32,204 nt of DNA from Candidatus Saccharimonadota bacterium (GTDB lineage Bacteria > Patescibacteriota > Saccharimonadia > Saccharimonadales > UBA10212): the NCBI GenBank assembly GCA_016234585.1, contig JACRBB010000008.1, positions 1 to 32,204 on the forward strand, written 5' to 3'. Of the stretch, positions 13,897-17,086 are shown in pieces. The translations under genes and the position numbers were made by a program. The notes beneath the pieces are model-generated. The model had not been told where the DNA came from. It made no database searches and saw only the letters and a program-made list of their open reading frames with translations. The first letter of the stretch is position 1, and each line of letters begins with the position of its first letter.

Positions 13897-14265
13897 ATGA
13901 GCCCTGAACCATTAAAGCTTGATGTCAGAACCGTAAATTTTAGCAGGGAAGTTATTACATTTTGCAAAGCGGAGAAAGTAACACTTGTAAGTCGGCCCTT
14001 AATAAATCAACTAGTACGCTCTGCCACAAGCATTGGGGCGAATTATGCAGAGGCAAATAACGCTGCTTCACGAGTAGACTTCAGAAGTAAGATATTCATT
14101 GCAAAGAAAGAAACAGCGGAAACGGAATATTGGTTAACACTACTGAGTGATGTAACGAACGATAAAGACACGTGCAACAAACTAACACAAGAATGCCACT
14201 ATCTATTGATGACATTTCAAAAAATAATCAATACACTAAATAAAGGGAAAACGGCTAAGGTATAG
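13897..14265 (+). CDS. Four-helix-bundle protein (23S rRNA IVS / S23 family)
   Basis: LINQLVRSATSIGANYAEANNAASRVDFRSKIFIAKKETAETEYWLTLL is the family signature. Confidence 0.9.
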   Translation: MSPEPLKLDVRTVNFSREVITFCKAEKVTLVSRPLINQLVRSATSIGANYAEANNAASRVDFRSKIFIAKKETAETEYWLTLLSDVTNDKDTCNKLTQECHYLLMTFQKIINTLNKGKTAKV

Positions 14266-15595: not shown

Positions 15596-15708
15596 TAAAT
15601 TTCCTCTGGTTAACTCTTATAAGATGTTAGATACAGATAAAGACTATAGCGTGACCACCCCTTTTTGTCAAAAGGGGATGAGCCTACTTTGTAAAGTGGC
15701 CAAACGTA

Positions 15709-15761
15709 TTCATACTTTTGTACCGCCAAAAGTATGCAAAAGCTCTCGGACTGCTACCTCA
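15709..15761 (+). repeat. Inverted repeat copy A flanking a GC-rich cassette
   Basis: TTCATACTTTTGTACCGCCAAAAGTATGCAAAAGCTCTCGGACTGCTACCTCA matches the reverse complement of 16914-16966 at 50/53 positions. Confidence 0.92.
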
Positions 15762-15777
15762 ACTTGGCGCATCTGCT

Positions 15778-15873
15778 GTGAAAAACAGGCTTGCTCGAGA
15801 ACTCCTCCTAAATATGCCCCCAGCATATTTACTCGTCTAACAGCTCTCACACTCAAAGGCGCCTATTTTTCAC
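15778..15873 (+). other. Structured region (possible RNA element)
   Basis: Outer stem GTGAAAAACAGGC / GCCTATTTTTCAC and inner hairpin AAATATGC-CCCCA-GCATATTT. Confidence 0.5.
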
Positions 15874-15987
15874 GATCATCTGCCCAGGCCGAGCTAGATG
15901 TCCGAATATAAAACAAGCTACTTAACTACTGCATCTACTCAGGTGAGTTGCACATGCTTGGTAACGGTCATCTAGGCCTAAACATGC

Positions 15988-16016
15988 TTGCTAGTTTAGC
16001 GTTTTTATTGTATTAT
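15988..16016 (+). promoter_or_regulatory. Promoter of the GC-rich orphan gene
   Basis: TTGCTA-N17-TATTAT. Confidence 0.6.
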
Positions 16017-16051
16017 TTGTTGGTTCGATCCTTCCCAAAAAGGAGAGCCGA

Positions 16052-16649
16052 GATGCTCAAGCGGTTTATCCGCGTACACCAGAATCCTTGGGACCACACG
16101 GTCCCGGACGACCAGCTGACCGGGCTCATTCTCGCCGTCGCCGACAGGCGTGCCGAGCATGTTGCCAGGCAGTTCGATGCCGGCATCTACGCCCGCGACA
16201 GCCTGGCTCTGGCCATCCTCAACCCCGCCGCGCCCTTGTGGCAGCCGAGCAGCGAGACGCTGCTGGCAACCATCGCCATCGGGCCGGAGGGCGAACGATT
16301 CGTCGCAAACGCCATCGCCAAGGCCGTCGAGCACCGTGATCACGGTCTGCCCGGCGGTTACGGAGTCTACGTCGACCTGACCCAGTCGGCCGACGGCGAC
16401 TTCTGCTACGGCTACTCGACCCAGGTCGATGGTACCATCGGCGGTGCCAGCGGCCAGACGGAGCTTCAGGATGCCTGCGAGGCGGGCCACGCGCTCGTCA
16501 CGTTCAACTACTACATCCGTGAGGCCCGCAAGAAGTGGGCCGAGATGCGCGAGGCACACCCGCACTGGTTCTGCAACCTCGATGAGCCGGGCGAGCTGTA
16601 CTCGGAGATGGCGAACCGCCCTGGAGAGATCTACGACGGCTTCCGCTGA
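16052..16649 (+). CDS. Orphan GC-rich protein
   Basis: AAGGAG SD before the ATG at 16052 (MLKRFIRVHQNPWDH...). GC about 65-73% in two 60-nt lines counted, well above neighbouring genes. Downstream hairpin. Confidence 0.75.
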
Positions 16650-16668
16650 CTCGCACGAAGGATCGAAC

Positions 16669-16692
16669 CCGGGGTGCGTTCACGCACCCCGG
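16669..16692 (+). terminator. Strong hairpin after the orphan gene
   Basis: Perfect 10-bp stem CCGGGGTGCG-TTCA-CGCACCCCGG; no clear U-tract directly after. Confidence 0.55.
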
Positions 16693-16693
16693 T

Positions 16694-16736
16694 CGATTCC
16701 AAAGTTTACAAAGAATGATTGTAGGTTTTGGAATCG
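16694..16736. other. Hairpin CGATTCCAAA / TTTGGAATCG
   Basis: Perfect 10-bp inverted repeat. Confidence 0.55.
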
Positions 16737-16803
16737 CAATTACCCATACGTCTGATGTAGTTAAGCTCGGGCGTCTGCCGAGCCCTGATTAGATGTTGTT
16801 TTT

Positions 16804-16893
16804 AAAATAAGTGTCCTTAGGTGGCTTTGGCTGTTTGACGCAGGATTCATCCACTGGATGAATCCTAAGGAGTTCCAAAGCCAAACTTATTTT
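16804..16893. other. Multi-stem structured element
   Basis: Nested stems AAAATAAGT/ACTTATTTT, GGCTTTGG/CCAAAGCC and apical AGGATTCATCCA-C-TGGATGAATCCT. Confidence 0.65.
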
Positions 16894-16913
16894 TAACAAT
16901 CAGCTACTCACGG

Positions 16914-16966
16914 TGAGGTAGCAGCCCGAGAGCTTTTGCATACTTTTGGCGGCACAAAAGTATGGA
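16914..16966 (-). repeat. Inverted repeat copy B flanking the GC-rich cassette
   Basis: Reverse complement of copy A at 50/53 positions; also holds the hairpin CATACTTTTG / CAAAAGTATG. Confidence 0.92.
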
Positions 16967-17086
16967 TTATTTGGTTCTTTGGAAAAGAACTTTTGAACAG
17001 GAGTAAAAACTCTTGCGTTGCCGATATGGTTATGGTAATCTGGCGACAGAAGTTATTAAAACCAAAAAAATCCTAAAAATATATAC

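Follow-up and report, generated by a model that had tools for sequence, protein, structure and literature searches.

Palindromic repeats placed mostly behind stop codons in a family of Saccharimonadales, and two copies that flank a GC-rich orphan gene

The window, by which we mean the whole stretch of 32,204 nucleotides analysed here (Candidatus Saccharimonadota bacterium, assembly GCA_016234585.1, contig JACRBB010000008.1, positions 1 to 32,204), contains between the divergent genes rpsT and DHH two facing copies of a palindromic repeat and, enclosed by them, a GC-rich orphan gene with the following features:

15683..15906, plus strand: palindromic repeat, left copy, of outer type A and with its 5' end facing rpsT (blastn, alignment, covariance model 117.9 bits for the core)
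15683..15699, plus strand: small hairpin at the outer 5' end of the left copy, CCTACTTTGTAAAGTGG (direct reading; near-identical in the repeat of G006)
15711..15736, plus strand: 26-nt hairpin CATACTTTTG-6-CAAAAGTATG of the left copy (pattern count, fold)
15759..15900, plus strand: long hairpin of the left core, internal loop GAGAACTCC...TCGTCTAACA (model R1, E 4.6e-25; fold z -2.4)
16022..16034, plus strand: 13-nt inverted repeat GGTTCGATCCTTC closely flanking the gene (partner at 16657-16669)
16041-16045, plus strand: Shine-Dalgarno sequence AGGAG of the orphan gene (reading)
16053..16649, plus strand: GC-rich orphan gene, 198 aa (ORF; GC3 0.79; homologues of 35-39% in three genomes)
16657..16669, minus strand: partner of the 13-nt inverted repeat (inverted-repeat search)
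16669..16692, plus strand: strong hairpin 3' of the gene, 10 bp, loop TTCA, without a T-run (fold of the 44-nt stretch 16657-16700: -30 kcal/mol, z -6.3)
16765..16990, minus strand: palindromic repeat, right copy, of outer type A and with its 5' end facing the DHH gene (blastn, alignment; core E 4.0e-30)
16772..16917, minus strand: long hairpin of the right core, GGAACTCC...GCGTCAAACA (covariance model; fold z -4.9)
16939..16964, minus strand: 26-nt hairpin of the right copy (pattern count, fold)
16974..16990, minus strand: small hairpin at the outer 5' end of the right copy, GTTCTTTTCCAAAGAAC (direct reading; the same in the C30 copy, in G001 C21 and in others)

An earlier, sequence-only reading had described 53-nt inverted arms, each with a hairpin of its own, as the limits of one mobile cassette. 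The inverted repeat is real and extends over 59 nt (15708-15766 and 16909-16967, 92% complementary), and each arm does carry the 26-nt hairpin CATACTTTTG-6-CAAAAGTATG with its 10 bp (fold z -7.5 and -4.9), which occurs twice without mismatch as compared to 0.01 occurrences expected per window even when 3 mismatches are allowed. The outer 53 nt are nearly identical between the left and the right copy, and in the alignment the left arm equals a copy on contig C30 of the same genome over 48 nt. However, homology to other copies, as detected by blastn of the own genome and by alignment, extends far past the arms, which are therefore the ends of whole repeats and not of one cassette.

The whole repeat is about 225 nt long and, according to the alignment, is composed of a small 5' hairpin, the 26-nt CATACTTTTG hairpin, the sequence CAAAAGCTCTCGGAC and a long hairpin closed by GTCCGAA, whose stem covaries around a conserved internal loop GGAACTCC...TCGTCAAACA. 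It comes with two outer types that share a common core, type A having the CATACTTTTG-like hairpin and type B having GCTCGCCCCTAA...TTAGGGGCTCGCT; a type A copy taken by itself lacks inverted ends. Outside the window the same genome (G000) contains matches at C30:17192-17424, C30:8353-8530 and C25:29918-30112, all of which span the whole repeat (about 180-230 nt) rather than the arm alone, and a remnant at C34:144-184. The copies at C25:29918-30112 and C30:17192-17424 are solitary. In a consensus of 22 cores (three of the five of this genome and the remainder from relatives, both window copies being included and kinship left unweighted) 16 of the 19 predicted pairs show changes on both sides and the letters of the internal loop are kept; RNAalifold recovered only part of the stem. 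A covariance model found copies in 21 of 118 relatives, 14 of which belong to the window's own family (14 of its 16 genomes, about 60 copies in all), with up to about 10 copies per genome. The outcome that the sequence-only reading had itself named as fatal to a cassette, namely that the arms are a repeat found singly at many loci, is thus largely what we see, on C25 and C30, in the C34 remnant and dozens of times in the family. No Rfam family matched at the gathering threshold, the sole match being at chance level and inside the orphan gene (E 0.05); blastn with the repeats against plasmids and phages gave no match, and searches of the literature returned nothing for the motif letters and known repeat families alone for the topic. 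As a side observation, the 26-nt hairpin of C30:8353-8530 (L187) is interrupted by another hairpin, CGGGGTCCCCAAGCTTGATAATCAAGCTTGGGGTAG, and this copy faces a second one of another subfamily at about C30:8561-8739.

Among the 60 copies with a readable upstream gene (from genomes of the family and a few of the order, genes being taken as simple longest ORFs), 47 lie 3' of a gene on the same strand (p 1e-5). The distances from stop codon to core cluster at about 30 nt for type B and about 75 nt for type A, with 31 of the 47 in these clusters, so that the outer end mostly starts within about 10 nt of the stop codon. Most of the upstream genes are core genes, which in this genus read as rplT, tsf and ileS. 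That the orientation and the distance to the stop codon are fixed, and that the internal-loop letters are conserved while the stems covary, is also what would be expected if the repeats were not selfish elements but functional 3'-UTR RNA structures, i.e. mRNA stabilisers or processing or termination signals. We regard this explanation as rather unlikely, as the repeat varies at matching sites of sister genomes: the three copies of G001 for which both flanks exist in G000 (C21, C49 and C35) are all absent from the matching G000 sites, where the alignment is untidy for C49 but clear for the other two. The comparison shows either gain or loss within a genus. In addition, no T-run follows the closing stem in the copies read, on which ground an intrinsic terminator was rejected. 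Since G-U is not in excess over A-C in the apical stems (7 as compared to 18 cells, where the A-C count may be inflated by register error), there is no sign of selection on the transcribed strand in these stems. Finally, both window copies are located upstream of rpsT and the DHH gene rather than behind them; because these genes are divergent, the window copies are among the exceptions that do not follow a gene.

How, then, are the two window copies related? Their cores are only 55% identical to each other, and for each of them the closest relative is found in another genome (at 78% and 86%). As they are not sisters, the copies are, on this comparison, read best as putative independent insertions. 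What speaks against this is that the outer 53 nt are nearly identical, in the C30 copy as well; independent insertion alone would not account for the likeness unless the outer module is strongly constrained or exchanged between copies. That the convergent pair and the enclosed gene form one mobile cassette with long inverted ends appears improbable to us, and we reject such a composite mainly because the flanking copies are non-sister and agree in their outer 53-59 nt only. The arrangement of other pairs hints at a composite unit all the same, as all seven pairs of neighbouring copies within 1.5 kb are convergent (gaps of 26, 36, 44, 95, 159, 779 and 872 nt; four of the seven pair partners come from our own pattern scan, controlled by reversed sequence alone). 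A loosened scan of this kind for other subfamilies yielded C30:8718 and a weaker candidate, C21:28480, gave no hit in reversed sequence and missed most of the copies found by the model. Two of the seven pairs, that of the window and one in G010 (C1), enclose one orphan ORF, whereas the other five contain no gene. The G010 ORF (192 aa, in the 779-nt gap) has a core gene on either side; the two core genes are convergent and each is followed by a repeat of its own, which accounts for this pair without a cassette. This one further pair with an enclosed orphan gene, and the convergence of all close pairs, keep the cassette from being rejected outright. The genome contains no second copy of the unit, and no target duplication was seen. 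Similarly suggestive of a cassette is the interval read as rplU-ileS, where G001 has a pair 44 nt apart and the present genome shows a remnant of the repeat with GC-rich genes after it. Of the 18 ORFs with a GC3 of at least 0.66, 3 are located no more than 300 nt from a repeat as compared to 10 of 501 ORFs overall (p 0.004), although the cut-offs were picked post hoc (at 0.72 it is 2 of 10, p 0.015), the counts are low and the window gene is among the three. Two observations may be added here. The G010 ORF (L232:2954-3532) is an orphan of low GC with a zinc-finger-like CGYC...CPNC pair between the convergent repeats, and the region C25:20644-29787 of G000 is a GC-rich run of large, foreign-looking genes (GC3 0.73-0.83) that ends beside the repeat behind the gene read as tsf.

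The orphan gene itself extends from the ATG at 16053 to a stop codon ending at 16649 and has a GC3 of 0.79 as opposed to a genome median of 0.52. The sequence-only reading was right about its GC-richness, its Shine-Dalgarno sequence and the strong hairpin that follows it, and gave its length as 199 aa only by counting the stop. Homologues with 35-39% identity are found in one MAG of the genome_contigs set and in 2 of 383 other genomes of the phylum, and the gene is a member of a rare orphan family. No such repeat was seen by eye in the flanking stretches read at the three homologous loci, which, together with the 55% identity of the cores, speaks against the proposal of one cassette between the arms. 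What stands of that proposal is that the repeat looks mobile and has no transposase of its own, and that the gene is foreign in composition; most likely, the gene was horizontally acquired and is unrelated to the repeats. The 13-nt inverted repeat around it is of a length reached by 2 of 478 control ORFs (at least 13 nt). Nothing usable was obtained for the 198-aa protein from Pfam, PHROGs, NCBIfam or PDB sequences. An AlphaFold2 model built from four sequences (pLDDT 69) yielded just weak roadblock/MglB-like matches, with a TM of about 0.3 and an E of 0.016 at best, which were set aside, and a GlcG/HbpS-like fold, which we had suspected, obtained no support.

The sequence-only reading had proposed to look for empty sites between rpsT and the DHH gene. 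In G001 this gap contains neither insert nor core but sequence resembling the two outer hairpins, and no target duplication was resolved. At the same place G006 has a related repeat of another subfamily, whose first hairpin is almost that of the left copy's outer end. The corresponding gaps of G004 and G005 (L055, L053) contain long hairpins that are unlike the repeat.

But what could move the repeat? A mobilising enzyme was not found, Y1 transposases being the class searched. Genes for Y1 transposases (about 205-230 aa) are present in half of the family genomes, and the convergent pairs resemble BIMEs, both of which would fit mobilisation of a REP/BIME-like palindrome by a Y1 transposase of the REP-associated kind (TnpA-REP). 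Nevertheless we consider this very improbable. The 21 Y1 genes of the family that were read are flanked by short, differing palindromes of their own, e.g. GCTACAAGGATTATCCTTGTAGC, and not by the repeat of about 225 nt, as would be expected of a cognate TnpA-REP gene, and were rejected as the mover on this ground; moreover, G015, G003 and the present, incomplete genome have several copies and show no Y1 gene. In the Y1 loci the model gave clear matches only for the pair of G001 at rplU-ileS, which a Y1 gene approaches to about 0.75 kb. Most Y1 genes (in G001, G006, G012, G008, G004 and G002; L324-L343) are closely flanked by perfect or near-perfect palindromes, such as GCTACAAGGATTATCCTTGTAGC and CTATTTACAGGGTGGCACCCTGTAAATAG, which are specific to the respective gene.

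In more general terms the repeat resembles REP/BIME sequences in that it consists of interspersed non-coding palindromes outside genes with a convergent composite arrangement, the close pairs alternating in orientation in seven of seven cases. A REP is defined as a palindrome of 20-40 nt with a GTAG or CGTC tag (PMC3733652). Different from such short, tagged palindromes, the unit described here is about 225 nt long, contains several hairpins with conserved internal loops, is strongly oriented directly behind stop codons and occurs in few copies per genome. With bacterial MITEs and other small mobile repeats (PMC2229807) it shares being short, non-autonomous, structured, non-coding and multi-copy, with presence and absence at matching loci of relatives. 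It differs from them by the lack of a terminal inverted repeat at both ends of a single copy and by its placement next to stop codons; neither a target duplication nor, among the Y1 elements searched, a parent insertion sequence was found. Like integron attC sites it is an imperfect hairpin directly behind a stop codon, with fixed orientation and a structure that is kept while letters vary, but it is longer and mostly follows core genes instead of lying in cassette arrays.

On balance we think it fairly probable that the two copies in the window belong to a non-autonomous palindromic repeat spread across the family, were inserted independently and face each other by chance, and that the orphan gene enclosed by them is unrelated and was acquired horizontally. 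The repeat is oriented and is usually placed directly behind a stop codon, where it would be tolerated in a very compact genome. It may move as a folded strand or palindrome on which an enzyme acts in trans, and sites that bear a repeat would then collect accessory genes. Most likely, the orphan gene is not part of one moving cassette, and the locus is a site where repeats and extra genes pile up. Against this explanation stand the convergence of all close pairs and the lack of both a mobilising enzyme and a target duplication, and a maintained function at 3' ends would produce the same placement.

Compact, reduced genomes are expected to lose repeats, whereas here one family is repeatedly gained or lost, always in the one orientation, right after core genes. 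The part worth following is this family, with its orientation behind stop codons and its variation between sister genomes. If the repeat moves, its enzyme and the rule by which it targets stop codons can be tested for; if it is not mobile but kept for 3' ends, it is an RNA element absent from Rfam. Either way, with the family defined, repeats that might be mistaken for the ends of a cassette can be delimited.

Relatives of the repeat may occur more widely. The right-hand copy of the G010 pair has the apex AACTCGCTTCGCTCAAACA, and the apex pattern AACTCGCTNCGCTCAAACA is one that occurs in other bacterial genomes. At least 80 viral contigs match AACTCGCTNCGCTCAAACA; collapsing duplicates leaves 41 contexts, about half of which, judged by eye, have the same layout, in which a hairpin precedes a long hairpin that carries the motif at its apex. 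The remaining contexts are of plainly different sequence and partly coding. Several contexts contain AAGTGCGGT, the Pasteurellaceae uptake word. This prophage repeat shares with ours the two-hairpin order and the AACTC...TCAAACA apex, which the G010 copy has in that very form; it differs in its inner stem, a mini-hairpin GCTNCGC in place of a long variable stem. The apex pattern in the form of the present family was not found in the viral contigs, the prophage contigs show no clear placement behind stop codons, and seven related ones gave no match in Rfam. We only tentatively suggest, as a possibility that we hold to be less than even, a class of structured mobile repeats common to Patescibacteria-type genomes and other bacterial groups, with the internal loop GAACTC...TCAAACA, which would insert in fixed orientation directly behind stop codons through an unknown enzyme and whose sites would become hot spots for accessory genes. 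Elsewhere in the window, an ORF of 122 aa at 13897-14265, flanked by a formamidopyrimidine-glycosylase-like gene and by the gene for DNA polymerase III delta, reads like a four-helix-bundle (S23-type) protein.
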